NCBI GenBank assembly: GCA_019096065.1 | Contig: JAGUCH010000001.1 | Location: 186,001 to 250,000, forward strand | Direction: 5' to 3' | DNA: 64,000 bases | Origin: Paracyclopina nana | Lineage: Eukaryota > Arthropoda > Copepoda > Cyclopoida > Cyclopettidae | Shown: in pieces, positions 17,566 through 57,568 of the stretch | Numbering within the stretch: the first letter of the stretch is position 1 | Layout of the letters: each line of letters opens with the position of its first letter | Notes under the pieces: generated by a model | What the model was told of the DNA's origin: nothing | What the model saw: only the letters and a program-made list of their open reading frames with translations | Database searches by the model: none | Made by a program: the position numbers and the translations under genes

Positions 17566-18432
17566 ATGGCCATGGCCGCCCTGGCCACGCCCCCACACGC
17601 CCACATTGAGCAGCTGCCCGAGGAGGGCGGCGGCGCCCCGAGCATCGTGGCCGAGTGGCTGGCGTTCCTCCAGCTGGGCCATTACGCCGGTTCCTTTCTG
17701 GATAACGGCTACGACGACCTCGAGACGGTCAAGCGGATCGGGCCCGAGGACCTGGACGCGATCGGGGTGGCCTCGGTGCATCACCGGGCCTTCCTCTTGG
17801 ACGCGGTGCGGGTGTTGCGCGAGCAGGGCGCGGCATGGGTCTACTTGCTACTAGGCGCCTCCGCAGAGTCCTCTCAGCCCCCCTACGTTGGGCGCCATGT
17901 AGTAGAATGGGACAACCAGGACCGAGTCTCGGCCAGCTCGGGCATCGCCTCCGCCAACTCGTGGCTGGAGGAGCCCGAGCTCTCGGGGTCCTCCTGCGAC
18001 CACGAGGCCTCAGCCGCAGCTGCCCCGCGGGCCCGTAGGCCCTCGTCTCAGCGGAGGTCCCGGGCCCGGGGCCCGAGCACCACGCCCTCGGCCTCGGCCG
18101 CCACCGAGGTGACCTACTGCCCGAGCAGCTCGGACACGTTGTCGGTGATCACCTCCATCTCGCGGAAAACTGTGACCGTGCCCTGCGAGCCCGCCAGCCC
18201 GAGGGCCCCCCGGGGGGGACCCGATGTCATCCAACGGGCCTCGTTCCCGCAGCAGCAACATCACACCATTGTGAGGGCCCAGCTGCATCAAATCCCGCCC
18301 CATTTGATGCACTTGACCATGAGGCCACCGCCTGTGAACGGGATTAACCCGTTGCATTTGAGGATGCTAGTCAGGGAAAAGCTGCTGGATGAGGGCATTC
18401 GCCTCTCAGCTCATCCCTACACGTCGGCTCAG
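17566..18432 (+). CDS. gene A coding exon 1 (SAM domain and PY-motif segment)
   Basis: It is 867 nt, 289 codons and phase 0, with donor CAG|GTAGGG. GC- and CpG-rich composition contrasts with everything downstream. It carries the SAM domain, a low-complexity linker and the LSAHPYTS segment at its very end. Confidence 0.88.
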
Positions 18433-21400
18433 GTAGGGAACTGAGCTCAGTCTCATCATTGATCTAGGCTCTAGTTAAGCTAGGCTCTTCGGAGGCTCAT
18501 AGCTCAGCAACTACTGAGCATGTTTGAGCCAAACTTGGCAGGATTTGCCAGTTGATCCTCATCATTGCTCATGGTAAAATTCATCCGGATTGAAGGATGT
18601 TTTGTAGAGGCCAGTTTTTCCCATTGTTTAAGTTAAGCAAAGCTGCCTTGCTGCACGTTTTTAATGGCCTCGGATCTCTAACTCAGATGGCAGCACTGAA
18701 GAATCTTGCCAAGTTAGCTTCCAATCGGCTCAGCAATTGCTTATCTATTAGCTTCGAAGAGCCTTAGGTTCAGAGAGCCCTGCTTAGCTTCAAAGAGCCA
18801 TGCTTAGCTTAAAAGAGCCTTGCTTAATTTAAAAGAGCCTTGCTTAATTTCAAAGAGCATTGCTTTAATTCAAAGAGCCTTGCTAAGCTTCAAAGAGCCT
18901 TGCTTAAATTCAAAGAGCCTTGCTTAATTTCAAAGAGCCTTGCTTAAATTCAAAGAGCCTTGCTTAACTTCAAAGAGAATTGCTTAAATTCAAAGAGCCT
19001 TGCTAAGCTTCAAAGAGCCTTGCTTAACTTCAAAGAACTTTGCTAATCTTGAAAGAGCCTTGCTTAACTTCAAAGAACCTTGCTTAATTTCAAAGAGCTT
19101 TGCTTAAATTCAAAGAGCCTTGCTTAACTTCAAAGAGCCTTGCTTAATTTCAAAGAGCATTGGTTAAATTCAAAGAGCCTTGCTTAACTTCAAAGGGCAT
19201 TGCTTAACTAAAATTAGAACGGGCTTTTACTCTTGAATTGGCCCTTTGAGGCTCTAATGAGAGCTTGAAAGCTTTATATTATTAGTAGTGAAAGTGAGCT
19301 ACTGAGCTTTGGAATTGCCCTGAAAGCAACAAATAAGCCTTAACTAGCCAACTTGGATGTTATAGCAACATCTCAGTAGTTTTTTTTGCCCAAATCGTTG
19401 AGACAAGAAACTTTTATCATGGTGTGTGTGTAGTTGTCACTTGAAAAGAGGCAAAGTTAGACGAGCTGGCAAAATTGGTTGGTGAGTGCAACCTGACCTT
19501 TTTCGATCCTTCCTCACGTTCTGCGTGTAATTGAACTCCAGCCCTGAGAAACCGCCTCAAAAAGAGAAGAGTAGGCTGTCATAACTCGTTATACACACCT
19601 CACTTCCCCCTTTTCCATTTTGAATAGTTATATACATATTTTTTTCGCACTTGGATCAAATTTTCTCTCAACAAATATTCCAGCAAGTGAATTGTGGAAA
19701 AGACACTCTGATTGTCTTGCAACTTCTTTCAGTTGTTGAGTGGACATACCTGATCATTAATTCAAAGCAGAAGCTGTTTTTCTTGGGAAACATCGTCCAT
19801 TTTTTTGGGGGCACTTTTTTACAGAGTTCTCAGGGTCTAGAGGATGTCAGCAATTACCTTGGCACATGGCAAAATTGGACGGAAATTCCAAGCGTTTGAT
19901 AGATGGCGCCATTTCCAATATAATGAAGGATGTACTGTAAAGAGCCGCTGGCCATTTCAGCAAAATGGCTCTCACCGATAGTATGGCAAGCATTTTGCAT
20001 GCTGGCCATACTTGCTCCAAGCCTATTAGCAGCCAAATTCTGCCTTCTTTGATCATCATCGTTGCTCTCGATGAAGTGTTAACTACTTAGTGAAGCTCAA
20101 AGGAGGGAAGCAGCTCAATTCTACGCAGATGAAGTTAGCAAATTCGGGATGGAAATTCCAAGCGTTTCATAGATGTCGCCATTTACAATATTAAAAAAGT
20201 GCACTATGCAGATGAAATTAGCAAATTTGGGAATGAAATTTCTGCCATTTCCAACATAATGAAGGATGTACCATAAAGAGCCGCTGGCCATTTCAGCAAA
20301 AAGCTCTCACCGATAGTGTGGCAAGCATTTTGCATGCTGGCCATACTTGCTCCAAGCCTATTAGCAGCCAAATTCTGCCTTCTTTGATCATCATCGTTGC
20401 TCTCGATGAAGTGTTAACTACTTAGTGAAGCTCAAAGGAGGGAAGCAGCTCAATTCTACGCAGATGAAGTTAGCAAATTCGGGATGGAAATTCCAAGCGT
20501 TTCATAGATGTCGCCATTTACAATATTAAAAAAGTGCACTATGCAGATGAAATTAGCAAATTTGGGAATGAAATTTCTGCCATTTTCCAACATAATGAAG
20601 GATGTACCATAAAGAGCCGCTGGCCATTTCAGCAAAAAGCTCTCACCGATAGTGTGGCAAGCATTTTGCATGCTGGCCATACTTGCTCCAAGCCTATTAG
20701 CAGCCAAATTCTGCCTTCTTTGATCATCATCGTTGCTCTCGAGGAAGTGTAAGCTATCTAGTGAAGCTCAAAGGAGGGAAGCAGCACAATTCTACGCGGA
20801 TGGAATTGGCAAATTTGGGATCTAAAGGCTGCAGGAACAAGGGCTGAATTTTGATCAACCGACTGACTACATTGACGTTGTAAAAGACAGCCTTTCTTCT
20901 TTCCTAATGAGCATTAATGGCCTTTCTACAACTGAGCAAAGTCAAAGATAAATCAGAGTGTCTTTTCAACAATCTCTTTGCTTGCTGGTTGATTTTGAAC
21001 TAATCAAAGCGTTAAATGGCTTATCGATGATTTCATCATATGTAGCATTTGCAATTTTGCATCCTTGAGGCTCAAGATTAATTGATACCCTTGGTTTTGT
21101 AAACCTGATTTTTCAGCATCTCTGAGAACTTCCTCCAGGTTTTTTCCCCTACATCATCTTGGTGATTTTTATTTGTTTGTGATGCTTTTTGGTTGTGGTA
21201 GAACATTACATGTTACATGTTTTGTGTGTGGGTGTTCAACTACACAAGAAGTTTACTACATGTTTAACTGTCATCTTTTGGTAAGGTGACAAAACAGGGT
21301 TCAAGGCTTCAAAATTGGAATATGGCATACAGTGCACCAGCTTGTTTTGAATTTTCAAATTCTTTTAGCCTTGGTGAGGAAAAGTCTAGATTTTGGCTTT

Positions 21401-24400: not shown

Positions 24401-27400
24401 TTCTGCTCCTTCTGGTAACACCTTTTTATTATTGCGTTACCCTAAAAGAGAAGCCTTCACTTTATCCATTACTTTTTGAGTTAAGGCCCATATATCTGCT
24501 TTTGATCCAGGAAAGAGTTTTTGCTGCTCCTTTTTTGGAACTGAGGCCCGTTTTGGGTTGGGGTAACATGTGACCAGATCCATTAGTTTTTGTTTGAGGG
24601 GCCAAAAGTATAGGTTTGGAATTTCTATTTGCTCTGGGGAGGCTAATTGACCTCCTCCTCAGTCAGCTCCAAAGTTGCTGAAGATTGTATCTCCTTTGTA
24701 CTTTAAAAGATGTCAGAAAGTGGGGAGAAAAAAACATTTTATTACTTAGGGTTGTTTTGGTTAATAATCCAGGAAAATGAGGGGTCATTTTCAGGGCTGG
24801 CATTCCGGTCAACTTTGGCAGCTCCTCCCACTTTTTCTGCCACATTTTTCCAATAATTATTGTTTTGGGCTGGTGGATCACATCATTATTATAAAAGTTC
24901 AAGGTGAAAAACTTGTTAAAAAAGGAAAGGGGTCAAAGGATTTGGGCAATTATCTGGGATGATCAATCATTTTGGCATTTCCTGCCAAAATTGTGGTCAA
25001 TGGAAACCGACTGTGGCTTCTTTTTTCTCCATGAAGAAAATCACCTCATTATCATGATAATTATTTCCAAGGAAAAAGTGAAATCCTGTTTTTGTAATGA
25101 GTTGGATTTTATTTGAACCTAAAAGTTTGGCAGTGTCTTTCAAAGTTCAAGTTTCAAATTTCAAATTTCAAAGTTAGGCGTGAACTTTTTTATAATGCAC
25201 TAATTTAAGGCTGTTGTTGATTAATTTATGATCCTGGTTTTCACCATTTTAAAACAGGTTTCTTCTTATTGGTCATGCCTATAAATGGATCAAGTGGTTT
25301 AATTTCATTGGGAAGAGTTTCAATTTGAGGCAAAATGTGAACATGGATCAATGTTAACAAATTGTTTGGATTGCTAAATAATGATTGAAATAGCGACAAA
25401 ACTTTCACCTTTTTTTCCAGTATAGACTTGCAAAAGTCAAGATTTGGCAAGTCATTGCAGTTCTCCTGAATGCAAATTGAGCAGTAGTGCTAAACACTCG
25501 ATTAAAAAGAGGGGCGGATTTTTTTTCGCCAAAACCATTGGAGCTTTTTCATTCAGCAACCTTCACTTAATATAAGTGAGTCGCAGTGAGTGCAGTTGCA
25601 CTTGAGCGCAGGCACGCTAACATAAAACCAGTCAAACCAGTGGCAAAAACGACAGATCTTTTAAAAGCTCAATCTCATTCGCTTAATAGCGAATTTGATT
25701 TCTTGACGTACTCTTCTTTGCTACAAATTATTTCAGCCTTTTTTTGGCATTCTTTGACGAACATTATTAGGTTTTACAAGAAACTAGGTGATGTTTAAGC
25801 TCAACTTTGGAGCAAAATTGCCTCAAAAAAGTCGGCTCGTCTTGAAAAAGCTCCAACCTTTAAAGAGCGCATAGGTGAAATGTTCAGCTGTTTCTCGAGT
25901 CCGCCACTCTTTGTACAAGAGTTTTTAAGCATATAAAGAAATCAAGTTTATTCAAGGTGCAAAAAGAGTCTTCTTCTTTTGTGACTTGGCTATGAGAACA
26001 AACTTCCGCCCATCAAGTATGCATAAATAGGTTGAGCAAAAAATGCCAAATTCCTATTGACTCTATTGAGTTTATTCCTGGCAAACGCTGCTCAAAATCT
26101 TGCATATTCTCAACTTTGGCTTCAATTCCAAACATTCAATAACCTAAATAATATCCAAGTTTAAACTTATTTTTTTAAATTTTATTCTTGAATCTAACTA
26201 TCAAAAGAACTTGTTCTTCAACATTTTTAAAGCTTAAAAAATCCATCTAAATTTGTTATTATACTCTATATTTTTTGAGTAGTTAAAGACATTGCTAATT
26301 TTTTTGTCAAATATAAAATTAATTTTTTTTCAGTTCAATTTAGAATTCACTTTTTGGACTTTCAGTTGGTGGTGGAGTTCTGAATTTGGTGAGGGCAAAA
26401 AAGCCTATTTTTGGTCAGATTCCAATCTTGCTGGTAATTTTTCCACTCAATTTCAGAGTCATTTTTCATTCAAGGTTAATTTTCGTTTGGCTTAATGGGC
26501 CTCATCACGAGATGGCCATCATTATTATTACTTGGTATCTATTTTTTTCTTCTCCCTCTGCCATAGCCAAAAGTCATTTTGCAAAAAGTCACGACTTTGG
26601 AATCAACTTTCATTTTCCTCAACTGTTTTTTCAGCTGCTGCCTTATACCCTATTTTATTAGGTAAAATATAACTAATGACAGCAAAAAAGGCAGGTTTTG
26701 ACCTTTGATATCTCAGAGGTCAACTTGGAATTAATTACCTTCTAAAATATTTCCTTATAGTCATCAACATTTTAAAAATGTACAGTAAAATTCAAGTTTT
26801 TTTTTAAAAAAAAAAATGCTTTTTGTGGTTTTTTTTCAAAAATCTTTTTTTTTTTTTTGGTATTGGCTAAAATTGTTTTTTTTTGTCAAATTAGACTTTT
26901 ATTAGCCAATTGTAAGAAATGACTTTAAAATAAGGCTTTTTAATGAATAATGATAAAAAGTAATTTACTTTTAATTAAAAGAGTAACACAAATGCTTTTA
27001 TGAGTATGTTTTCTCCCATTTTTTCCCATTTCAAAACTGCAAGGTATTTGGCAAAAAATTGTTAAAAAATGTTTTTGAATATTTTTAAGGCCAAAACTCA
27101 ATATGTTCATTCTTACCAGCCAATTCTATGAAATAGCTGAAAGCCAAGTTGTTGCATAGTAGGTAGGTTGGTGGTGAAGAAAAAAAAATTAAAAGGTTTT
27201 TTTTGGCAGATTTCAATTTGTTTATTTTTACCAGCCGATTCTATGAAAACTAAGTTGTTGCATGAAAAAAATTGCTATAATTAGTAGGTTGCAGGTGAGC
27301 AAAAAATGCCATAATGAGCATGTTTTTCCCCAATTTTTCCAGCCTGAAAGAGAGAGGAAGTTGGAACTGCATTTCCTGATGGTGCATGCACATGTGCACT

Positions 27401-42400: not shown

Positions 42401-45400
42401 GGTCCGGGCTTATCATCAAGTGCATGTGTGCACCTAATTCAGATATATACCACAGAGGAAAAAGACTTGCCAAGGACGAGCCAAATGCTAATAAAACATT
42501 CATACCTTTTCTTTTCCCAACATGAAAGGCTTTTCTACAGTCTTCCTCTAGGCCTTAGCAGAAGATCTCCTTGGCTTCCTTTCGCAATGCTGAAATCCCA
42601 CTTAATCCTGTATAATCATGGCATTCATCGAGAAGTGAAAAAACAAAGCGCTTTATTTTTTTTGAAACTGCATCCAAGAGTTGATCTAGGATACTTGACA
42701 GAATTCTCAAGGCAACTTCTCTGCTTGCACGCACTTTTACTCCATGGGTATAGCTATCTCTTTCGACATTTCCAAAAGCGATAATTAGCTTTTGAAAAGG
42801 CGTTGAGTGAGAAGAGGAAAATATGCGTTGTTTGTCTTACCTCCTCCCACTTAACTTGACTTAACTTATGAGAGGGAGTATATGATGAAAAAACAAAGTG
42901 TGAAGAAGAATGTCCTCTGAAGGGGGATGAGGAAATGACAATAATAATGGTCATCTGTTGTTGCCCAACTTCCCCCTATGGTGGTAGCAGTACATGGCAC
43001 TTTTTGATCACCATTGCACAATGTGCTTTTGATGTCAAAGCCACCTTAGGACAATAATAGTAATAATGCCTTTGCGGCAATGTGCCAGCAGCACTAATGT
43101 AATTTCTTCTCCCTCTCTGACGTCGCCAAACCCAACTCTGCATCTACTTCTTACATTATATTAGGATGCCATTTGTGTCTGCTCAAAATACCTAAGCTGC
43201 ACTTGCAGCAAAAAAGTTGTCGCAACCCCACTTAATGGGTGACAATTTTTAATTCAGGCATGAAACATGTACTTTAACTCTTAAGACTATAATTGTGCAA
43301 TGGTGATCAAAAAGTGCCATAAACAGCAACTACCATTTTGGGAAGTTGAACAACAACAGATGACCATTATAATTGTCATTTCCTCATTCCCCTTTAGATG
43401 ACATTCTTGATCACACTTTGTTTTTCGTCATATTCTCCCTCTCGTAATTTAAGTCCAGTTAAGTGGGAGGAGGTAAGGAAAACAACATATATTGACTTTG
43501 GGAACGATTCTCTGTGATTGACGCTAATATTCATGAATTGACATGAGTAGCATGCAGTTGACGCACAAACTGCTCAAGCTATGCTACTAAAACATGGAAG
43601 AGCATGTCTGGGTCACTTCTTTTTCAGTTGATTCCTATAGGGAAGTGATCTTGAGATGGGGATCCATGATGGAAAATCATTGATGTTGCAGTTTGTCCTA
43701 TTCATGCTTCATCGACACCTTGATTATTCATTATTAGTCGATGTGTGCTACATTGCGCTTGTCATTTTTTCTCTTTAGCTTTATCATGAGGAAACAAAAG
43801 ATCTTGATACTGTGAAAAACTGCCATAATGAGAAAAATCCATTAGCAGCCTGTCACCAATTCCATGCTGGCCAATTTTGGTCATTGGGTTGTCATTAGGT
43901 CTTGATTGAGATAACAATCTGAAAAATGCTGTGTGGGCTAACAGCTTTTTTCCTTTCCTTTTTCAGCAGTCTGGAGATGGCTATTTGGTGGGCCTTGCCA
44001 CCAGATACTCCACTGAGCTAAGGACAAATTATGGTGACGTTTTACAGCAATTGGAGGACTTGAGGCTTGCAGAATGGTCAGATCACGCCCCTCCACCACC
44101 TTTGGCGCCCGGATCAGCCTCCGAGGTCACGAGGTCAAGTTATGTCAATTACCCCTCTGGCCACGACAACAATGAGCCTATTTATGTACCTGGCTCCTAC
44201 CTCGTAAGCCTTCATAAATTACTATTAGAAAAGGCCGCCTTTTTAATTGTGGGCCACATTACTAGGGTGAACAAGTTTTTCGCTAACCAGCAATGTAACT
44301 TTGGCAAACTTTGATTTATCCGGAGGAAAAGTCAGACTGGTACAATGTCGCTTGCGCTCAATTCCCTTTTTTAACTTTTCAGCCTTCAAGTTGCCTTGGT
44401 GATCGGGACGGTGACCAGATTTATGACTACGCTTCCAAATATAGGGCACAGATGCGACACCAACAGGCCAAAATGCTTATGACACCACAGGGGTAAGGCA
44501 AAGCGATGAATTAAAAATGTGCTCCTTTCCCATCATATAGCTTTTCCCACCTTCATATTGGAATGGTACTGCGGAACAGCCCATTGATAAAAGTTTTATT
44601 ACGTCTGTTCAATGGAGGCTCTTGGAAAGGAGGGATCGTTAGCAGAACTTGTTAGCTGCAAGATGTGAAAGTTCAGCTTTTAGTGGGCCCCGCTCATCTG
44701 ACGCCATTTCCAATCACTATGGCAACGCAAAGGCTGAAAAGTGGGAAAAGGGAATTGGGCACAAATGAAATTGTGCCAGAGTGACTTTCCAAATGTATAA
44801 ATCAAGATTTTCTTCGGTTGCTATGCTTGCAAGTGTAAAACTTGCTCTCCCTAGTTTTTTGAGAAATGGAAAGGGCCGCGGATAAATAAAGTTAAGCCCT
44901 ATTGCTAGTCTCAAGGGTGTTGTATCGATCTAAAAACTGCAATACAAAGAGCGGCGGACTCAAGAAGCAGCTGAACATTTCATCTATGCGCTCTTTACAG
45001 GTTGGAGCTTTTTTGAGACGAGATGACTTTTTTAGGCAATTTCGCTCCAAAGTTGAGCTTAAACATCACCTAGTTTCTTGTAAAAACTAATAATGTTTGT
45101 TAAAGAATGCCCAAAATAGGCTGAAAAAATTTGTAGCAAAGTAGTGTACGTCAAGAAATCAAATTCCATATTAAGCGAATGAGATTGAGCTTATAAACGA
45201 TCTGTCGTTTTTGCCACTGGTTTGACTGGTTTTATATTAGCGGGTTTGCGCTTAAGTACAACTGCACTCACTGCGACTCACTTATATTAAGTGAAGGTTG
45301 CTGAATGAAAAAGCTCCAATGTTTTTTTGCGAAAAATTTCCGCCCCTCTTTTCTTACATAGAAGATGTTTAGTTTCATCCTTTTGCAGGTGGATTCAGAT

Positions 45401-45650
45401 GGCCAAGCGAATTTTATCGAGCAAAAATCATCACAATCAACAGCCTCAGAAATCGATATATGGAGGCCACCACCGCCAACGTGTGGCCCCAATGGCCTCT
45501 CGGAGTCGAAGTGAGGCCAATTTAGCCCCACCAGATGGCAGCCACCCATCGATTGAACACTATGGCAGTGGGAACAGCAACCATTTAACCATGTCAAAAA
45601 CCAAAGTCTGGTACCGCTGCAGCCAGAGTGACTTTCACCAGGAGGCCTGA
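17566..45650 (+). CDS. gene A: SAMD5/SASH1-family SAM-domain protein, 4 coding exons
   Basis: The exons are 17566-18432, 43967-44203, 44383-44492 and 45389-45650, with phases 0, 0 and 2, giving 491 residues. The first ATG in frame is 17566; the open frame before it contains no ATG. Residues 26-86 form a SAM domain ([20 protein letters not shown], then DLDAIGV and [10 protein letters not shown]) that closely resembles SAMD5. The end of exon 1 has [19 protein letters not shown], the segment shared by SAMD5 and SASH1 (KLxxEGIxLxxxPYS). Exon 2 continues with [16 protein letters not shown] and [10 protein letters not shown], matching SASH1's region before its second SAM domain. The middle of exon 1 is a proline/serine/arginine-rich linker. 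No SH3 domain or second SAM is seen. Family members are adaptor-like signalling scaffolds; the specific role here is unknown. A paralogue, gene B, faces it from the opposite strand. Confidence 0.88.
18774..19207. repeat. 20-bp tandem array (TGCTTAACTTCAAAGAGCCT) in gene A intron 1
   Basis: About 22 head-to-tail units of exactly 20 bp. Variants at unit positions 7-9 are AACTT, AATTT, AAATT and AAGCTT. The array begins about 340 bp after exon 1 and decays at both ends. Confidence 0.95.
19208..19872. other. gene A intron 1, no feature seen
   Basis: No coding exon or repeat recognised; short frames here have no family signature. Confidence 0.5.
19873..20822. repeat. triplicated 270/335-bp tandem repeat in gene A intron 1
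   Basis: The landmark GGAAATTCCAAGCGTTT begins copies at 19881, 20151 and 20486. Copies 2 and 3 are 335 bp and almost identical; copy 1 is 270 bp because it lacks a 65-bp internal segment. That segment is itself a diverged duplicate of the GCAGATGAAGTTAGCAAATT part of the unit, so the array has nested duplication. Short open frames within it are repeated by copying, not selection. Confidence 0.92.
20823..21714. other. gene A intron 1, no feature seen
   Basis: No exon, RNA gene or repeat could be supported. Confidence 0.5.
21715..22365. repeat. diverged direct repeat pair of about 145 bp
   Basis: The 21722-21860 segment (CAGTCTGGTTTTGAATAAA.. TTGCCATCAG.. TTTGGTTTGTTC) recurs at 22225-22365 (CAGTCTGGTTTTGATTAAA.. 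ATGCCATCAG.. TTCGGTTTGTCC) at roughly 75% identity by eye. It is probably an old duplication or two copies of one element. Confidence 0.6.
22366..22969. other. gene A intron 1, no feature seen
   Basis: One 100-codon + frame (22464-22766) is open but carries no recognisable motif or splice context. Confidence 0.45.
22970..23350. repeat. degenerate GAGGACTTAAA repeat
   Basis: Seven or more irregular copies of (A/G)GGACTTAAA spaced 40-55 bp, in a T-rich background that includes TATATTTTGT. The spacing drifts, as in an old minisatellite. Confidence 0.65.
23351..24182. other. gene A intron 1, no feature seen
   Basis: AT-rich intron sequence with GTGGGCTTTTAA-like dispersed words and no supportable gene. 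Confidence 0.45.
24183..24530. repeat. 120-bp tandem duplication carrying the GGTAAC..GTTACCCC hairpin
   Basis: Copies at 24291 and 24411 are 120 bp apart and nearly identical. Each begins TCTGGTAACACC, and pairs with GCGTTACCCCAAAAGAGAAG about 20 bp later. A diverged hairpin of the same type stands at 24183-24222 (GGTAACACC..GGTGTTAC). Confidence 0.85.
24531..25505. other. gene A intron 1, no feature seen
   Basis: No supportable gene, RNA or repeat. Confidence 0.45.
25506..25912 (+). mobile_element. 407-bp MITE-like element, copy 1
   Basis: The ends are AAAGAGGGGCGGA and, inward from the right, AAAGAGTGGCGGA, a 13-bp terminal inverted repeat with one mismatch. The body includes AATATAAGTGAGTCGCAGTG and CCAGTCAAACCAGTGGC. 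A second full-length copy lies at 44946-45352 in the opposite orientation with the same length, so the boundaries are supported twice. No transposase frame is present. Confidence 0.88.
25913..27825. other. gene A intron 1, AT-rich, no feature seen
   Basis: Long T and A runs around 26,800-27,200; no exon or repeat family recognised. Confidence 0.45.
27826..28185. repeat. GCAAAGTGGCGCTACTTGG dispersed repeat, three copies
   Basis: Copies of CTGCARAGTGGCRCTACTTGSC occur near 27829, 27988 and 28156, at spacings of about 160 bp. A weaker inverted relative is near 27633 (GTAGCGCCAGTGG). The intervening DNA is similar in composition but hard to align. Confidence 0.55.
28186..37376. other. gene A intron 1, long stretch without supported genes
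   Basis: About 9 kb of intron. Many frames of 60-100 codons occur on both strands, but none shows a family motif or matching splice sites. One copy of the dispersed hairpin family is at 33654-33698 (TTCTGGTAACTCTG..GCGCTACCCCAAAAGAGA). Confidence 0.5.
37377..39162. mobile_element. 1.79-kb fold-back element with about 640-bp inverted arms, bounded by TTAA
   Basis: The left arm (37377 to about 38015) and right arm (about 38525 to 39162) are inverted copies at roughly 95% identity by eye, separated by about 500 bp that also contains smaller inverted pieces with ATAATAAAATTTCATTTTC. The outer edges read TTAA-GAGTGAGAATCCCATAGCAG on each side. TTAA may be a target duplication as in piggyBac-type insertions, though the end sequence is not the usual CCC. 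Each arm contains the same 120-codon open frame, preserved because the arms are near-identical; it has no known domain. Confidence 0.9.
39163..42820. other. gene A intron 1, no supported gene
   Basis: Mostly featureless AT-rich intron. Between about 42,100 and 42,800 the composition is less AT-rich and frames are open on both strands (76-118 codons), but no motif or splice logic identifies an exon. Confidence 0.45.
42821..43490. repeat. 670-bp inverted-repeat element with about 195-bp arms
   Basis: The left arm (42821-43030) contains TTACCTCCTCCCACTTAA, GATGAGGAAATGACAATAAT, GGTCATCTGTTGTTG and GCACTTTTTGATCACCATTG. The right arm (43290-43490) carries their inverses in reverse order, at roughly 85% identity by eye. 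The spacer is about 260 bp. It resembles a long-arm fold-back MITE; no target duplication was identified. Confidence 0.8.
43964..43969 (+). other. tandem NAGNAG splice acceptor (CAGCAG) of gene A exon 2
   Basis: Two consecutive CAG acceptors follow a pyrimidine tract. Use of the first adds one glutamine; use of the second begins the exon at SGDGY, which is how the gene B exon (AGDGY) begins. Both keep phase 0. Confidence 0.65.
43967..44203 (+). CDS. gene A coding exon 2 ([13 protein letters not shown] module)
   Basis: The acceptor follows TTTTTCAG with donor CTC|GTAAGC, phase 0 at both ends. It aligns along its length with exon 57568-57359 of gene B, including GDGYL-GLA-R-S-EL, DVL-QLED and the later YANYP/YVNYP. 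It has a PPPPL run and ends [11 protein letters not shown]. Confidence 0.88.
44383..44492 (+). CDS. gene A coding exon 3
   Basis: The 110-nt exon runs from acceptor TTTTCAG to donor GG|GTAAGG and encodes [20 protein letters not shown] and a glutamine-rich tail. It aligns with gene B exon 56098-55968 (SSSCLSDKDEDDIYDFAAKY). Confidence 0.85.
44946..45352 (-). mobile_element. 407-bp MITE-like element, copy 2, in gene A intron 3
   Basis: It is the reverse complement of the element at 25506-25912, of identical length, with ends AAAGAGCGGCGGA and CCGCCCCTCTTTT. It makes up nearly half of the 896-bp intron 3 and ends 36 bp before the exon 4 acceptor. Confidence 0.88.
45389..45650 (+). CDS. gene A terminal coding exon 4
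   Basis: Acceptor TTTTGCAG leads into GTGGATTCAG; the split Gly codon continues [11 protein letters not shown], matching gene B's WCKLAKKAM. It is a basic, serine- and histidine-rich C-terminus that stops at TGA 45648-45650. Similarity to gene B fades after the first ten residues. Confidence 0.8.
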
Positions 45651-46035
45651 AAAAGCTCTCTTCTTCACATCCCTGATATTCATCCTTTCTTTAAAATAGC
45701 TTAGAAACAAATATACACATGATATTTGGTGACTTTCATATCTTTTTTGGCTCTTTACTCAAATGGCCTTCTTGGATATGGTTCAGTTCTGGAACTTTTA
45801 TTAGCAGCAGCAGCAGCAGCAGTCATAAAGTCCATATTTTTCTGCTCTGCTATCTAAATTGCTTTTTTAAGCACACATCCATTTTTTTGTATGTGTGGAA
45901 AAAGTTTGGGAAATGGCTGCTGCTCTGAAAGGAGTTATGACAGGCTTTCACCAGTACAGTGGTCACGTTTTCCAGACAAGTCTAATCCTGTCTAAATTCA
46001 ATTCTGGTCAATCTAGCAGCCAGTGCTATAATAAA
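45651..46035 (+). promoter_or_regulatory. probable gene A 3' UTR with (CAG)6 and poly(A) signal
   Basis: A run of six CAG triplets stands at 45805-45822. The first canonical AATAAA after the stop is at 46030-46035, which would give a 3' UTR of about 400 nt. The extent is inferred. Confidence 0.4.
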
Positions 46036-48254
46036 AGTGTGGTAAGGGTTTTGAGCAAGCTTTTACTCTCAGTCTGATTGCATTTGCTTTAAAAGTAAGC
46101 TAGGGGGAAATTCCCCTCTTTGATTTGGCAGAAGAATCTAGAAGGAATTCTAAATTGGACTCAACCTTTATCTCACACAGGAGTGTCAAGGAGAAATAAT
46201 TATTCCAATAATCTATGGTGGGATCAGGCCAAAAAAAAAAAAAATCAGAATCTATTTTAGGCCAAGCTAAAGTAGCTTCTTGACCTCTCTGGTCAAAATA
46301 GGGCTGGACATGCAATCAACTGCACACTTGACCATCTGGAGAAGAAATATTCACTGGATAATTATTATTTTTTTTGGGTAAAAGCCACTTGGATTTTTTC
46401 CACACTTGGTTATCAATGTTGATTGTTGTTGCAAAGGGAGTTTGTTGAAACAGAAACTTTCCTCATGGGAATTTAAGCGATAAAAATCTTGAAAACTTGT
46501 TAACGCAATCAAAGCTTATCCGTCCAAAACCCTAATTTAAACATACTTTTAAAAACCTCGAAGGCCATTTCATGTTAAATCTGACAACTATTTAAAGTTG
46601 TCAAGTTTATTAAAGATAAGCGCTAAAACAACGCTTTAGTTATTGATGGCAACGCTGTAAGTCAAGTTTAAGTCGTCAACTCATTTGGACAATATTTGTT
46701 AATTTCCCAGCCAACAATTTGTAAGGCTGAAAAGCCAAGCTGGCTAAATATTTCAAAAGGCCATAGGTATTTGTAAGCAAAGTGACCTCATTCATCTCCG
46801 AGCCTATTGGGAATTTGCTTTTGTTCCCTGGCAAAAAGGAGAAAAGGCCTTCAAGGCCAAACGTTAGGACAACTGACAAAGGTTGAAAACGCCAATTTAA
46901 AGAAGAATGCTTTGGGTGGGGGAAATAAACGAGCAATTTCCCCAGCATGTATTGCAATCAATAGTACTGATTTGAATCATCTGTATTCTGGAAGGAAGTG
47001 TGAATAACAAGCTCAGATGAGTCATTCTTCTTTTGGTGTGAGCCAAAAATTGCCATTTAGAAAGCTCACGTTTATTGCAGAGACATCTGAAGAAAGCTTT
47101 TGCTGATGTGACGACTCCAATACTCCACCACACTGGGACAGAGGAGGGGGAAAAAGTCACCAAAAGATGCTGCCAAAGCTTTATTGTTCCCTAACTAAGC
47201 CAACCAAGTAATTTCTTTTTAAGCTCGAATGAGTATGAAAGCTGAAGCTGTCGCAGTAGGATGGCAAAATTGCATGATTTGCTCAAATTGGCATTAGCAT
47301 TTTACAAAGTGTTTGCTTGGCAATTTCTTGAAATTGTCTTTTCAAGTTGACGACTTATTTAAGTTTTTATTCTGTACGCAAAGCCGACCTTATTTTCATA
47401 CTTCGTTTTTTTAAAAAAAAGTAACTGTTACATATCATAAAAGATATCAAGCAGTTTTCCAGCCGTTAAATTAAGTTTTATTATAATGTGCGTTAAATGA
47501 AAATGTCGATAAGTCATTAAGCGATCACAAGTTTTGAAGGTTTTTATCGCTCTCTATTCCCATGGTGAGTTTTCTCTTTACAACAAAGTCCCTTTATTAC
47601 AATGTGCAACAGAGAAATCGAATGCTGACTAAAATGAAAATGGCTTTCTAAACCGGCTGCATAATGGCTTTTTTCCTGCTGCCTTCAGAACCTGAAAAAT
47701 GGCAATTTAATCACACATGTCAAAGCAGATACATGATAGCAATCAATTGCCTCATTTAGTCAGAATGGAAAATGGAGCCAATTTGAAAAGTGGTACACTA
47801 AAGTAGACTTGTGACAGTCACAAAAAGTCCCCTTCATAATATATTACAGCCCTGTTCTGACCCCTTTCTGCCATTTCCCTAGATGAAGTGGTTGCCATTT
47901 GATATACCACGCTGTGGTTTCTATACCCTTAACCCCCTTTATATACCTTAAGAGGTATTGAACCCATTTGAAGCCCCCAAACCATGCTGGCAATGTTATT
48001 TAAGAATATTATACCTTTTTTAAGGAATTTACCCCAGGGTTAATCGGTTACATTCAGAAAAGCATGCCATGATGACATTCACATGCAAATATTAGAATAC
48101 ATATAACCACAAAAAAGACTTGCCAAAATACTGCCATTCTGTTTGATCACTACATGGAATGGTCAAATACAAAAGACTTTTTGACATCTTTGCGCTTTCA
48201 GAAAAAAAGCTAATCCTTATTTGAAGTTTTGGCAATATAACTATTTTTAGGTAA
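46036..48254. other. spacer between convergent genes A and B, no gene seen
   Basis: No supportable exon, RNA gene or repeat beyond short homopolymers. Confidence 0.5.
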
Positions 48255-48800
48255 ATTAGAATGCCTCAAAATCTTTGAGGCCTACAATTTTGATGCCTCA
48301 TATTTTTATGCTCCTTAAAATGCCTCAAATTAGGTTACATCAAAAATGCCTCAAGTTATGATACCTCAAATTATGATGCCTCAAATTATGATGCCTCAAA
48401 TTACGATGCCTCTAATTATGATGCCTCAAATTATGATGCCTCAAATTACGATGCCTCAAATTATGATGCCTTAAATTATGATGACTCAAATTATGATGCC
48501 TCAAATTATGATGCCTCAAATTATGATGCCTCAAATTATGATGCCTCAATCTATGAAGCCTGTAATAATGATGCCTCAGATTATTATGCTCCTTTAAATG
48601 CCTCAAATCAGGATGCTCCAAATTGTGATGCCTCAAATTGTAATGCCTCAATTTCTTATGCCTATAATTTTGAAGCCTCAGATTATTATGCTCCTATAAA
48701 TGACTCAAATTGCCTTTAGTTACCATGCTTTTTAATTATTATGCATCATATAATGAATGTTTTTGTGATGCCTCAAATTAAGATGCATCAAAGTAAGATG
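48255..48800. repeat. 15-bp tandem array (ATGATGCCTCAAATT)
   Basis: The core at 48352-48545 has about 13 regular 15-bp units; the flanks are irregular with ATGCCTCAAA, ATGCTCC and ATGCATCA variants. On the - strand it keeps a frame open with a repeated RHHNL peptide, an effect of the five-codon period. Confidence 0.92.
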
Positions 48801-49544
48801 CCTTTATGCCTCAAATGTATATACATCAAAAAAGCCCATTGAGGCATGTACTGGTGATGTCCTCAAGTAACATCTTCCATATTTTGCATGGATTATGTAA
48901 ATTGAGCCTTTTTGGCTACATCTGCATGCCTTTTTTTATCAGTGAAAAAAATGTGGATTTTTCCATATTCATTACTAGTACATGTGTGTATGTACTATAT
49001 GATTATGCATACACTATAAGTTTATAGGGGAAAAGTTTCCTTGCAGGGGATAATCTCATTTGCTTTCGCCTATCTACAGCATTAGCAAAATATGCCTTAA
49101 ATTCCAGCAGACTCTGTTGAAAATCACCAGGAAGTTTGTACAAGATAGTTCACCACCCCTAAATTCCCCAAATTCCTTGAGGCAATTCCATTTAATGTTC
49201 ATTAATGCCATTTGCTGCTGTTGTTATTCCAAGGGTCTAGACTCTCCATCAATGGAATGCCTTGCTTAGCTTCTTTAAGTGAAGTGCCAGACATAATTGA
49301 GATTGCTAGCAGACCAAAAGCTATATACTGTAACCTTGTAGCAGTAGTTGAAGCCGAAAGCAATTTAGAAGCCAAAGAAAGCATCATCCAAGTTTTAATT
49401 ACAGCAAGATTGAAAGTTTCAAGTTCAGCAGCCACTGATGTTGTTTGTTGTGGTGAAATACTACAGGTTGGCAAACAAAAGCCAAAGTAAAGTAATCAAC
49501 TACTACCAACCTTTCGAAAAATGAAAAGACTCAAGCGTGTTTTC
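48801..49544. other. spacer, open frames on both strands but no recognisable gene
   Basis: From about 49,200 to 49,490 both strands are open for about 90 codons. Neither product resembles a known family. It may be the remnant of an element together with the inverted pair that follows. Confidence 0.3.
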
Positions 49545-50113
49545 TTTTACCAAAACTAGTTGTTTGATTTGCCCTCTGAAGATCGATGATCTTCGCAAGG
49601 ACTGCAGAGTGCCAATTGGTAGAGATTTCTTTCTCATCCTTGTAAGCGAAACTAGTTCAATAAGGTCAGTTTTTGCAAATGACGTTAAAATAGTAGGTAT
49701 TATGACAAAAATTGCGAAAAAGCTGTGCAAATTTGCAGATAGCACAGATGGCCAGCTCATGTGGAGAGATCTGTTGCGTAATGCTGGAATCTTGATGATC
49801 ATCGAATAAATGTATTGGAAAATTGCTCCACTACCATCCCAATCTCCCCCTTCTTTCTCTCCGTGCTCTTGATCTTCTTCCTCGTTGTTCCGGGTGCAAA
49901 CCGGAAATTAGGCTATAACCGGTTATTCAAATCACTTGATTATGCCGCAGAACGCCCAAATGCAATTTTGACGCCATTTGCTAAAACTGAACATATTGAA
50001 CTAGTTTCTTTTCAAAGTGTTAAAAAGCAATCTTCACCAATTGGCACTCAGTAGTCTGACCAAAGATCATCGAACTTTCAATAGCAAATCAAGCGACAAG
50101 TTTTGGTACTTTC
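49545..50113. repeat. inverted repeat pair of about 145 bp
   Basis: 49545-49687 and 49970-50113 are inverted copies at roughly 75% identity by eye, sharing CCAATTGGCACTC, TTGAACTAGTTTC and AGCAAATCAAGCGACAAG-like words. Translated in the corresponding strands, both arms read FAKT..IELVS and PIGT, so one coding-like sequence was inverted and copied. A degenerate transposon is possible. Confidence 0.55.
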
Positions 50114-50551
50114 TTACATAGATGAAAGTACGCTAAATTGTAGAATGAGTTACTCAGATGTCTGGTCTGAAGGGAAAATTTTGGTTAGAAAGCAACATTG
50201 TGCATAGTAGGGGAAAGGGACACGTGCGGCCACTCAATTTATGCTCGACTCAATGACTGACTGTGTCAAATTCTGTCACTCCTAAATGACTTTGAACAGC
50301 CAGAAAATTGGGCTTTCTCTGCTGGCAAAAAATCCACCTAGGATTCTAATCAAAAGAATAGTATAAAGTTTCTTTTGCTGCTGCTGCTACAACACTCCAA
50401 AGTTGGCCTAATTACTCTTTCTTTTTTCCCTTGGCCGCAATCATCTAAGCAACTTTTTAATTAAATTCCTCTAATTTGATTTTTTGGCAAGAAACTCACA
50501 CTCCTTTAATTTGCCACTTGAGCTAGCATCATTTGCCTGGTTTTCGTTTTA
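50114..50551. other. spacer, no feature seen
   Basis: No supportable feature; a short run of GCTGCTGCTGC occurs near 50,379. Confidence 0.45.
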
Positions 50552-51180
50552 GTGGGACATTTCAAATGGGACATAAGTGGTACTTTTCTTCCGGGTACTT
50601 ATCTAATGGGACAATGTGCTGACTTTCAAATGGGACATTCTGGTACAGAGCTTAACATTTTACCATTTTTTTGGAACAGAGTTTTTAGTATCAAGACCTT
50701 GTTGGGACCAGCATTTTTGGTACAATGCCATACACTTTTGTGTTGGGTCAAGAAATAGCCAAAAAATGGTAATGGTAAAAATGGAAATTGCTTTCTAATG
50801 CATTAATGGGACATACCTTAGTGGGACATTTTTTGAAACTTGGTACTTTATTTGAAACTTGGAAATCACCAAATGAATTTTAATGTCTGTCACTTGAACT
50901 TAATTTTGTAATGGGACATATCTTAGTGGGACATCATTTGAAACTATTTTTTAATGGGACATGAACTTATAACAGGGACATTATTTGAAACTTGGTACAT
51001 TATTCGAAACTTTACCACTTAGAAATCGCCAAAAAAAAATATAATGTCTGTCACTATGAGCACAATTTTGTAATGGGACATGGAACTTTTTAGAAATTAC
51101 TTTTTGATGGGACATTATTTGAATCACTCGCACATGAACTTAATTTTGCAATGGGACATAACTTATACTGGGACATTTTG
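50552..51180. repeat. AATGGGACAT irregular repeat
   Basis: About fifteen copies of (A/G)TGGGACAT on the + strand, several in the compound word AATGGGACATA..TTAGTGGGACATT..TTTGAAACTTGGTAC. Spacing runs from 15 to 110 bp, so it is a decayed or compound minisatellite. Confidence 0.75.
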
Positions 51181-51684
51181 GTGCAACTTGAGTGATAAGA
51201 CACTAAATGGTGTTTTGGAAGCAATTGCAGATGACTGGAGCTTTCTTCCCTCCATTGCATTATTGTGGTGGAAGACTGCATTTAGTATGAAAGCTGGTTG
51301 GGGGTGTCCTAATGAACCGCAAGCTCAAGTTTTTGTTCACAAGCAAGTCCGGACTTAATAACCGCTGACATGGAAACGAAATTACCTTTTCTGGCCCCAG
51401 TTCACATATAGCACCAATTTTGGTTGTGTGTGCCACTAGAAATAATATGGGAAAAAAAGCCTCGAAAGTCATGTGAGAAAAAGTGGGCTAATACTTGCTT
51501 TCTGCTCTCTGCATGCCAATACCAATTGACAGAAAGGGCACGAAATTCGAAAAAGTCCGTTTCCCCGGAATTTCCCTGCTGGCAAAATTGGAACAGCTGA
51601 GGTCTTTTCATTATTTGAAAAGTGTACATGGCTTTTTTAGCCAATAATAGGCCAAAAAAGCTTACATTTAGGGCTTATCAGGCT

Positions 51685-51830
51685 GATTTCACTATTTTTG
51701 GCAATAATTGACTATTTTTGGCAATATTTGACTATTTTTGGCAATAATTGGCTATAATTGGCTATTTTTGAAATAATTGGCCATTTTTGGCATTAATTGG
51801 CAAATTTTTGTAATAATTGGCTATTTACAT
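51685..51830. repeat. GGCTATTTTTGGCAATAATT tandem repeat
   Basis: Six or seven imperfect units of 20-23 bp based on GACTATTTTTGGCAATAATT. Confidence 0.85.
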
Positions 51831-51917
51831 ATTTTCATTTTTTTTCAGTGTAAAGTTGGCTATTTCGAAATTTGGCTAGTTCACTCCAGCATTATTTTGT
51901 AATCATGATAACTAATG

Positions 51918-52125
51918 TCTGGTAACGCTGATTTATTGAAGGCGCTACCCCAAAAGAGAAGAGAGTCAGTCAGAATAACAAACTGTATCTATTACTCATT
52001 AATGGCCTAATATTCGTGACTAATAGCCAGCGTCTGGTAGCGCTGATTTATAGAAGGCGCTACCCCAAAAGAGAAGGAGCGACAAGGCGCAGAGTCAGTT
52101 AGAATAACAAACTGTATTTTGTATC
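51918..52125. repeat. 115-bp direct duplication carrying the TCTGGTARCGC hairpin, next to gene B 3' end
   Basis: TCTGGTAACGCTGATTTATTG at 51918 and TCTGGTAGCGCTGATTTATAG at 52033 each pair with GGCGCTACCCCAAAAGAGAAG and then share AGTCAG(t)TAGAATAACAAACTG. The first copy holds TTTATT (51932-51937), which read on the - strand is AATAAA and could be gene B's poly(A) signal. Confidence 0.8.
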
Positions 52126-52250
52126 AGCTCTACGGAACACAGAGAGAATTAGAATGTGTATGGATTTTGTCGTCCGAGAATAAGCAGATAGTCGTTGAGA
52201 AGACATCACAGCATCGTTACGGCGGCGGCGGCGCGCCCGTTAACTTTCCG

Positions 52251-52650
52251 TTACACCGCCGCCTCTTGCGCGGCCTTTAACGCGTCCCTCACGTCAGAGT
52301 AGACCACGCGCGTTCGGTACATCTGCACCCGCGGGCTAGAACAGCCCGCGGTTTTCTGCTTGACCAGGGGCGTGGCCGGCGGCTGCTGATTGCCAAATTG
52401 GAGGCCGTTATTGTATAACGGCCTCCGATTAACGGTCATGACCGAGGGCCGCATGCCAATCTCCTCGAAGCTGGGCAGCGAGCCCGGATGGCTGTCCTTT
52501 AAAGGCCCACCTGGCCTTAATCTCGTCCTGGTGCTGAACCCTTGATGACTTGGCACCGGACTGCTAAAGGCCGAAGAGGAATTGTACAAAGGCTGAGCTT
52601 GGCCTTCCGGCCTTCGTAATGTCATGGCCTTTTTCGCAAGCTTGCACCAC
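52251..52650 (-). CDS. gene B terminal coding exon
   Basis: Acceptor TCTTTCAG|GTGG, phase 2, 400 nt to the stop. It contains PSFEEIGMRPSVMTVNRRPL and MYRTRVVYSDVRDALKAAQE. The exon and the 50 bp beyond it are locally GC-rich, with (CGG)n just after the stop on the - strand. Confidence 0.83.
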
Positions 52651-55600: not shown

Positions 55601-57568
55601 GCTTTGCTACTTTGAGTGGCTTTTTTGGCGCATTTTTCAAGGTATTTACTCAAATTGCAATCACATAATGTCTGATTCCTCTATTTAAAGGATTTTCAAT
55701 GAGTTTCAGCCATTTTTTGAGACTCTAAAATTTTTTTCTTATTAGAGAAGAATTGTTTGATTTCAATTCCAAAAAGTGCAGTTTAAATTGTAAAACTTTT
55801 TCTGATTCTGGTAGCCCTGATTTTCAATAGGCGTTATCCAAAGAGAACACAAGTAAACCAAGCCATCTCTTTTGAGGTAGCGCCCACTCTTGAATTTTAA
55901 AAAGGAAGACAAATGGACCCCTTTCATGGCTTGGAATTGGCTATTTGTTTGGCTTAAAAGTGCTTACCCTTGGTTGGTAGAGGAATTGAAGATTTTGGAG
56001 GGCTTGTTTCCTCCTCTGAGCAGCTTTCCAACTCCCTCATATTTGGCCGCAAAGTCGTAAATGTCATCCTCGTCCTTATCGCTCAAACAACTGGAAGACT
56101 GAACAAGAAATAACTTTCCTCAGTGAACTCAAATGCAATAATAACTTCCGAGCACAATGGTGCACTACCACTGCAAACTTTTGAAAATAGGGGAAAAGTT
56201 CTTCTTATTCATCTTGCAGGTCATTCAACATTTAAATTTATGGCATTAACTTAACCAGGTGAGCTTTCAAAAATTATTTTTTGCAATGTTATACTAGCAT
56301 AAGTGGCTTTTTTTAAAAGCACGCTAATCTGAGACCCATTATGCGACAACTTTCCCCAAAGAGTTGACTTGAAGAGAGTTAATGTGGCCAGAAAAATATC
56401 TGGTGCTTAACAAAGTGGTTGAATATGACAATTCGTCTTTATTAAAAGAAAAGCGCTTAAAAACTTATTTATAATTAAGGTATAACTCTGATCGACTTGG
56501 GCTAAATATTCAATTGTTTAAAACACGTTAAACGATAAGATTGAGCGCTGTGTTTAAATTAACATAGTTGCTCAATTCGTAGCAAGTTTTGACATTCAAG
56601 AGGAAATTTTGCCAACATTTCAATTGGACGAATGTTGATTCATGAAACTGAGCTTCCACTGAAGAGCAGCTGTGAAAAACCGTGATGAATTATGTTATTT
56701 TGCTGAGCAACGAAATATCGAATTACACTTCAACATCTAGCAGGTTTTTTTGCGTAAAAAAGTCACGTAAAAAGGGGACTTGATCCGTTATTCTGCCTTG
56801 CTTTTTCTTGTTCCTAATCTTTCCTCCCCTTCCACTACTACTTCATATTCATACAGAAAATCTGGATCAAGATTTGCACCCCAAATCTTTGCGCCCCAAA
56901 TTCCATGTAAATTATGAGTATTCTTTTTGGACATGCAAAACATGTACAGTCAATATAGTTTTTAAAATATAATTCAACTTGGTTTAACACACTTGCTCTT
57001 CAGTGGAATTATCCAGATACAAATCACCATTCATTTCCTTGATAAGCTGAGCAGATTTCCTTTCGAATGGCAAAACTTGCTTCCAATTAGAAGTTAATGT
57101 TTGTTTAACAATTGTGCATGGTTGACGTATAAAATGCCGTAAAAACACTGGCTTCATTAATTGCAGGCCCTGCCCAATGTTTTATGGACTTTTAAGTATG
57201 CCAAGCTGAAATACGCTAACAAAGTTAATGTATCGCATGATTTTTTATGATTGTAAAACATCAGCAATTTTTCCTGCCACATCAAATAGGGTCAAGTCGA
57301 CTCTTTGGCTCAAGTTGGCTTTGGATGGATCTCAGATTTGTTGAGTTGGAAGACTTACAGCATAAATTCCTGGCATGAAGTTCTTGTCAGTTTCAGGATA
57401 GTTTGCGTAGTTGTGACTTTCACTCAGCCTCCTGCTGGTTGTCATCATCCAATTTGAGGCCATGGAAGCTGACCTCATGTCCTCTAATTGGTGGAGGACG
57501 TCATCCTCATCAACATGGAGCTCAGCTGAAAACCTGGCAGCCAATCCAGCCAGGTAGCCATCACCAGC
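52251..57568 (-). CDS. gene B: second SAMD5/SASH1-family gene, last three coding exons
   Basis: The - strand exons 57568-57359, 56098-55968 and 52650-52251 join with phases 0, 0 and 2, identical to gene A. They encode AGDGYLAGLAARFSAELHVD..DVLHQLEDMR, then SSSCLSDKDEDDIYDFAAKY, then WCKLAKKAM and a long C-terminus ending DALKAAQEAAV at TAA 52253-52251. The exon with the SAM domain is not in the window; by analogy with gene A's 25.5-kb first intron it lies beyond 64,000. Compared with A, exon 2 is shorter (70 against 79 codons), exon 3 longer (131 against 110 nt) and the C-terminus unrelated after about ten residues, apart from being basic and serine/proline-rich. Exon 4 is GC-rich. Function is unknown beyond family-level scaffold or adaptor. 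Loss of the SAM exon (pseudogene) cannot be excluded, but the frames and splice sites are intact. Confidence 0.85.
52717..54432. mobile_element. 1.7-kb element with perfect 18-bp terminal inverted repeats in gene B intron 3
   Basis: GTCACTAAGGCCTAAAAT at 52717-52734 is repeated exactly inverted at 54415-54432. The interior holds nested inverted repeats: CCAACCAGAAATTT at 52744 is inverted at 53951, and an arm near 53966-54060 (TTTTAGGATCTAAAAT.. AAAGCCTACACTTTT) is inverted at 54310-54410. Degenerate GTGTGACACAAA and TTTTAAGATCTAA words fill the middle. No transposase frame is seen and no target duplication is evident. Confidence 0.8.
54489..54620. repeat. 20-bp perfect tandem repeat (AGAAATGGCCAAAAATTGTC)
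   Basis: Six units with almost no variation plus a partial seventh, with a separate single copy near 54,689. The uniformity suggests recent amplification. Confidence 0.95.
55368..55886. repeat. three copies of the dispersed CTACCCCAAAAGAGA hairpin family
   Basis: A - strand copy lies at 55368-55414 (TCTCTTTTGGATAGCGCC..GTTGCCAGAA), a + strand copy at 55806-55848 (TTCTGGTAGCCCTG..GGCGTTATCCAAAGAGAA) and a - strand half-copy at 55864-55884 (TCTCTTTTGAGGTAGCGCC). All lie in gene B intron 3. Confidence 0.7.
55968..56098 (-). CDS. gene B exon equivalent to gene A exon 3
   Basis: Acceptor TTGTTCAG|TCT and donor GG|GTAAGC, 131 nt. SSSCLSDKDEDDIYDFAAKY matches gene A; a KLLRGGNKPSKIFNSST tail is specific to B. 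Confidence 0.85.
57359..57568 (-). CDS. gene B exon equivalent to gene A exon 2
   Basis: Acceptor TTTTCAG|GCT and donor GCT|GTAAGT, 70 codons, phase 0. Shares GDGYL-GLA-R-S-EL and QLED with gene A. Confidence 0.87.

Follow-up and report, generated by a model that had tools for sequence, protein, structure and literature searches.

Gene content and structure of the locus

The window, the whole stretch of Paracyclopina nana DNA that was analysed, covers C1:186001-250000 (64,000 nt), and the genome searched amounted to 92 Mb in 10 contigs (labelled C1, C2 and so on where a position requires it). In this genome the cuticle family Chitin_bind_4 has 80 matches, as suits an arthropod. Positions without a contig label are counted from the first letter of the window and continue beyond its end. 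Two gene models of four exons each were predicted, gene A at 17566-45650 (+; 490 aa) and gene B at 71858-52251 (-; 491 aa), the latter with exon 1 beyond the window end. The features of the locus are as follows:

17566..18432, +, gene A exon 1 (ATG to donor, phase 0; from splice sites)
17635-17820, +, gene A SAM domain (residues 24-85; Pfam SAM_1, E 2.9e-13; also a SAM_1 match in the genome scan)
18474-19213, +, dispersed repeat with a 20-bp tandem array (22 copies), just inside gene A intron 1; related copy upstream of gene B
43970..44203, +, gene A exon 2 (phase 0 at both ends; conserved GDGYL.GLA.R.S.EL...DVL.QLED.R)
44383..44492, +, gene A exon 3 (phase 0 to 2; SSCL.D.D.D.IYD.A.KY)
45389..45650, +, gene A exon 4 (TGA stop; tail diverged)
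45651..52250, no strand, spacer between the stop codons of A and B (6.6 kb, rich in repeats)
52251..52650, -, gene B exon 4 (TAA stop; tail diverged)
55968..56098, -, gene B exon 3 (phase 0 to 2)
57359..57568, -, gene B exon 2 (phase 0 at both ends)
71601-71780, -, gene B SAM domain (SAM_1 genome scan; 7.6 kb beyond the window end)
71858-71124, -, gene B exon 1 (ATG and SAM domain; outside the window)

The introns measure 25,537, 179 and 896 bp in gene A and 13,555, 1,260 and 3,317 bp in gene B. They occupy aligned positions with phases 0, 0 and 2 in each gene, and all six are bounded by GT-AG. The pair is flanked on the left by a DENN/PLAT gene and by one that is RAI16-like and carries DUF5917; to the right are frames that by eye resemble cuticle repeats, transporters and a serine protease; no larger duplicated block was visible from these flanking genes.

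The dispersed repeat at 18474-19213 has 93 matches genome-wide, its larger array-bearing copies being at C1:258715 (upstream of B), C1:179225-180523 and C3:11497565. Intron 1 of gene A also holds a fold-back element (37377-39162) composed of two 698-nt arms, 95% complementary and 390 nt apart. At least 51 matches to this element were listed genome-wide, many at 95-99% identity, which indicates recent activity. The same intron contains a tandem array at 19908-20821 (336-bp unit, 2.7 copies, 96% matches), and an inverted repeat pair joins 25505-25927 in intron 1 to 44931-45352 in intron 3 (arms of 325 and 103 nt, 91% and 87%). In the spacer, the unit at 49200-50060 has an internal inverted repeat with 144-nt arms (78%), and no further copy of this unit was found in the genome.

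Comparison of genes A and B

In order to compare the genes exon by exon, each exon was set against 1000 shuffles. Exon 1 (108/237 aligned positions identical), exon 1 with the SAM domain removed (51/144), exon 2 (30/70) and exon 3 (17/37) each scored above 1000/1000 shuffles. In exon 4 the similarity (25/86 identical) was not above chance, 110 of 1000 shuffles being equally high. The SAM domains proper are identical at 40 of 59 positions. With A as query, the genome gave 12 matches (E up to 10), namely its own exons, the B exons and weak matches to the SAM part (best E 0.0127); with B there were 10 matches, likewise its own exons, the A exons and weak SAM-part matches (best E 0.0067). Neither query brought up a third copy among the best candidates, the ones that were scored.

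The two genes are almost certainly paralogues, and their common origin is read from exon 1 outside the SAM domain, from exons 2 and 3 and from the introns, not from a tree of SAM domains. The original prediction had proposed paralogous, convergent neighbours with the same exon order and intron phases and with diverged C-termini, and each of these points is borne out: the four exons of each gene correspond, exons 1-3 beat every shuffle, the tails do not, and A (+) and B (-) face each other across 6.6 kb between stop codons. The protein alignment that it had suggested as a check gave a blastp E of 1e-66 with 36% identity over 467 positions. The SAM exon for B that it had set beforehand as a test, on the minus strand beyond position 64,000, was found at 71858-71124.

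Origin of the pair

Two neighbouring copies with no third copy found are most simply read as a local duplication, and it is quite likely that the pair arose in this way and not by a later meeting of the two genes. The orientation and age of the duplication are not readable from this locus, since dS between A and B (NG86) is saturated and undefined in 3/3 segments and the noncoding DNA common to both is a dispersed repeat. A blastn comparison of 9001-46600 against 51001-80000 gave 20 rows, one coding (SAM, inverted), 17 in the repeat block 18474-19213 and two short, and within these two stretches no inverted flanks or introns common to A and B were found beyond the exons. The pair may simply be too old for inverted flanks to have been retained.

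An inverted segmental duplication carrying its flanks was considered and rejected, the sole long common noncoding block (18474-19213 at A, 72715-73481 at B) being the dispersed repeat. Because this repeat is on the plus strand at both places, it was not carried along in an inverted copy.

There is an appreciable chance, if clearly below even, that the pair began as a direct tandem duplication and that one copy was inverted later. Nothing at the locus fixes the original orientation, and the many repeats, fold-back elements included, could assist inversions; against this history, two events are required in place of one, and no breakpoint of an inversion was observed. From this locus an original inversion and a tandem duplication with subsequent inversion are indistinguishable. 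Thus, of the inverted local duplication first proposed, the local part stands on two neighbours in opposite orientation and the lack of a third copy, and the part that had it inverted from the outset is not upheld, given saturated dS and the missing inverted flanks.

Relationship to SAMD5-type and SASH-type genes

In Pfam searches (E up to 1), A and B each matched SAM_1 and SAM_2 on a single stretch and nothing more; SH3, kinase, phosphatase and ankyrin domains were absent from both at that threshold. Against PDB sequences, A matched the SAMD5 SAM (5zrz_B) at the top of 26 sequences (E 3.1e-17). For B (22 sequences) a SHIP2-EphA2 fusion came first by summed score (58.1 bits), and SAMD5 was second by sum (53.9 bits) with the best single domain among the matches listed (53.8 bits). 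When the SAMD5 SAM was used as the genome query (10 matches), A scored 68.7 bits, B 58.2 and the next match 26.8. SAMD5 (5ZRZ chain B) is thus the closest SAM to A and B in both directions, and the SAM domains of the pair are very probably SAMD5-type and not SASH1-type, as judged from these searches.

A separate SASH-type SAM lies about 4 Mb away at C1:4276099-4276293 (-), nearest SASH1, SASH3 and SAMSN1, and the frame immediately upstream of it matches SH3_2 (23.7 bits, cut-off 21.8; gene unspliced here). SASH1, SASH3 and SAMSN1 (the SLy family) have an SH3 domain followed by a SAM domain related to those of A and B, which lack SH3. A SASH1 identity for A and B is ruled out by the absent SH3 together with this separate gene that has both SH3 and SAM. 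The combined SAMD5/SASH1-type label of the original prediction therefore survives in its SAMD5 half only. The SPIDER region (PF12485) had no Pfam match in A or B, and a genome search for it was empty, as were its controls.

The SAM domains of SHIP2 and Caskin, which pair with Eph or with themselves, are of the same class as those of A and B, but among the matches listed their single-domain scores were below SAMD5 for both genes, and A and B have no phosphatase or ankyrin match. The likeness to SAMD5 was compared over the SAM domain only; A and B are about 490 aa long with conserved segments in exons 2-3, and vertebrate SAMD5 is much shorter (173 aa). In vertebrate SASH1, the segment before the second SAM presumably resembles the stretch of A and B that runs from the end of exon 1 through exon 2. 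A previously unreported helical bundle is placed in this region of SASH1, at 1092-1170, by one study (PMC10252437). Searching PDB with the exon 1 end/exon 2 segment of A gave no related structure (best E 1.2, unrelated), and the corresponding A/B motif was not found around the SASH-type gene in C1:4262001-4284000 (best E 0.49).

A tree was built from 34 SAM domains of this genome and 11 from PDB (45 rows, 74 columns). A, B, SAMD5, SHIP2, one further row from this genome and four SASH rows made up a starred set of nine (96/88), in which the four SASH rows, including the SAM at C1:4276099-4276293, formed a clade with support 100/100. Four constraints were then compared:

A with B: cost 0.16 log units, p-AU 0.497
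A with B and SAMD5: cost 3.31 log units, p-AU 0.22
A with SAMD5: cost 6.97 log units, p-AU 0.137
B with SHIP2: cost 3.98 log units, p-AU 0.335

None of the four was rejected, and on the SAM domain alone the tree does not resolve A and B as sisters. In this tree the path from A to B (0.61) is shorter than that from A to SAMD5 (0.88), and the B branch (0.34) is longer than the A branch (0.12), which accounts for the lower SAMD5 score of B.

It is unlikely, though far from negligible, that the split between A and B dates from early animal evolution, so that only A would be the direct counterpart of SAMD5 and B a second old SAMD5/SHIP2-like lineage that remained adjacent. Such a history fits the SAMD5 SAM being closer to A than to B, the tree rejecting neither A with SAMD5 nor B with SHIP2, and the saturated dS. 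The shorter path between A and B argues against it, as do the segments that the two genes have in common outside the SAM domain (the rest of exon 1, exons 2 and 3) and the three common intron positions. That one copy is a decaying pseudogene is highly improbable: the longer SAM branch of B and an exon 4 diverged past recognition could be taken that way, but the frames are open over 490 (A) and 491 (B) codons with canonical splice sites, the B SAM is above the Pfam cut-off (30.4 vs 23 bits) and its mid-loop residues are kept. A resemblance merely of the kind seen between any two SAM domains, with the remainder due to chance, can be dismissed, because although a SAM_1 scan of the genome gave 33 places (both A and B SAM exons included), the aligned introns and the shuffles of exons 2, 3 and SAM-free exon 1 refute it.

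CpG content of the two copies

The paralogues differ in the CpG content of their 5' coding parts. The observed/expected ratio is 0.85 in exon 1 of A (83 vs 98.0 expected) and 0.07 in exon 1 of B (4 vs 59.1 expected), where TpG is raised to 1.61. Codon choice follows the same pattern, with CGN making up 15/22 Arg codons in exon 1 of A and 0/15 in that of B (Fisher p 2.1e-5), and NCG making up 31/100 and 0/64, respectively, of the Ala, Pro, Thr and Ser codons (Fisher p 4.3e-8). In B the fall sets in close to the start codon, with 18 CpG in the 250-bp bin at 71750 and none in that at 71250. CpG is also low in exon 2 of B (2 vs 12.6 expected), little lowered in exon 3 (4 vs 7.1) and normal in exon 4 (33 vs 34.4). 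Because the surrounding DNA is CpG-poor as well (median 0.33 in 1-kb bins over a 94-kb stretch), the depletion is not special to B, just strong at its GC content; eight 2-kb pieces elsewhere ranged from 0.23 to 0.74.

Three genes with DNA_methylase matches were found on C2:

C2:4446103-4447674, strand not given, DNA_methylase gene (above the Pfam cut-off)
C2:8153186-8154577, strand not given, DNA_methylase gene (above the Pfam cut-off)
C2:16349121-16350602, strand not given, DNA_methylase gene (above the Pfam cut-off)

BAH domains are present in one of these, and from their motifs, by eye, we take two to be DNMT1-like and one DNMT2-like.

The contrast between the first exons looks like the trace of germline methylation over the 5' coding part of B. 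According to a study of Nasonia vitripennis, methylation there lies in 5' coding exons and starts after the start codon, and bisulfite sequencing revealed paralogue pairs with unlike methylation in which the unmethylated copies evolve faster (PMC3794928). Those pairs are like A and B in that one copy is CpG-poor in its 5' coding part and the other is not (PMC3794928). They differ in that CpG depletion alone was read here and that here it is B, the CpG-poor one, whose SAM branch is longer, the reverse of the Nasonia trend. A regulatory split of the copies tied to methylation is a tentative reading of these base counts, less likely than not.

Putative docking on an Eph receptor

A single Eph ligand-binding domain was matched in the genome (C4:6891503-6892036). 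An Eph SAM, nearest EphA7, follows 2.3 kb downstream on the same strand (locus C4:6891503-6894541), and the frames of this receptor are CpG-rich (0.84-0.94). In PMC5993539, the mid-loop of the SAMD5 SAM is described as the surface that docks on the end helix of the SAM domains of EphA5-8 and EphB1-4, and SHIP2 docks Eph via the same mid-loop. In SAMD5, changing Tyr27 to Phe abolishes EphA5 binding, and Asp40 is located at the Eph interface (PMC5993539). On the Eph side, a Gly is required at the start of helix 5, a Pro just before it weakens SAMD5 binding, and SHIP2 binding requires an Arg in the Eph SAM (PMC5993539).

The mid-loop Tyr and Asp of SAMD5 are kept in both copies, as Tyr49/Asp62 in A and Tyr50/Asp63 in B, and both contain GYDDLE. 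The local Eph SAM reads VGHQKK, with Val in place of Pro, the Gly present, and Lys at the site where, according to that source, SHIP2 binding needs Arg. Together, these residues make docking of A and B on the local receptor plausible. The Tyr27-plus-acidic pattern is not unique to the pair: a Tyr27 accompanied by acidic residues at positions 29, 31 and 40 is found in 3/34 SAM rows of this genome (A, B and the SASH-type SAM), and Tyr27 with Asp40 in 4/34 (A, B and two Caskin-like SAMs). On these residues, we would put Eph docking by at least one copy at about an even chance.

Structures of exons 1 and 2 of A were modelled from single sequences. The exon 1 model had a mean pLDDT of 43.5, better over the SAM helices at 25-87 (blocks 65-82), and the exon 2 model a mean of 68.5 with one helix at residues 2-37. 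Such single-sequence models are too weak for fold searches. Exon 3 encodes an acidic, Tyr-bearing motif.

Each copy would be a soluble cytosolic scaffold or adaptor with an N-terminal SAM domain, whose acidic mid-loop may bind the end helix of the Eph receptor SAM. The helical segment of exon 2, the acidic Tyr segment of exon 3 and the diverged tail of exon 4 could then recruit other partners. The copies would have diverged in tail and in regulation, the 5' coding part of B being CpG-depleted (methylated-type) and A being CpG-rich. Overall, it is likely that A and B, now convergent, are old paralogues that a local duplication made from a single SAMD5-type adaptor gene, with SAM domains that would dock Eph and with diverged tails and regulation.

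Implications

Among the papers listed by a literature search, none dealt with SAMD5 duplicates in arthropods. In origin the pair appears to be an ordinary gene duplication, with a hint of differing control of the copies. More speculatively, in an arthropod with a single Eph receptor SAMD5 may have doubled and the copies divided their roles by way of germline DNA methylation, B being methylated over its 5' coding exons and constitutive and A being unmethylated, CpG-rich and developmentally regulated, so that one receptor would be served by two adaptors with unlike tails; we regard this scenario as improbable as a whole. Genes A and B are a clean case of old convergent paralogues in which exon structure was kept and the tails and CpG content parted. 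Should both proteins bind the one Eph receptor, A and B would be a simple natural test of how two adaptors are used by one receptor, and would also test gene-body methylation loss or gain against duplicate specialisation outside Hymenoptera.
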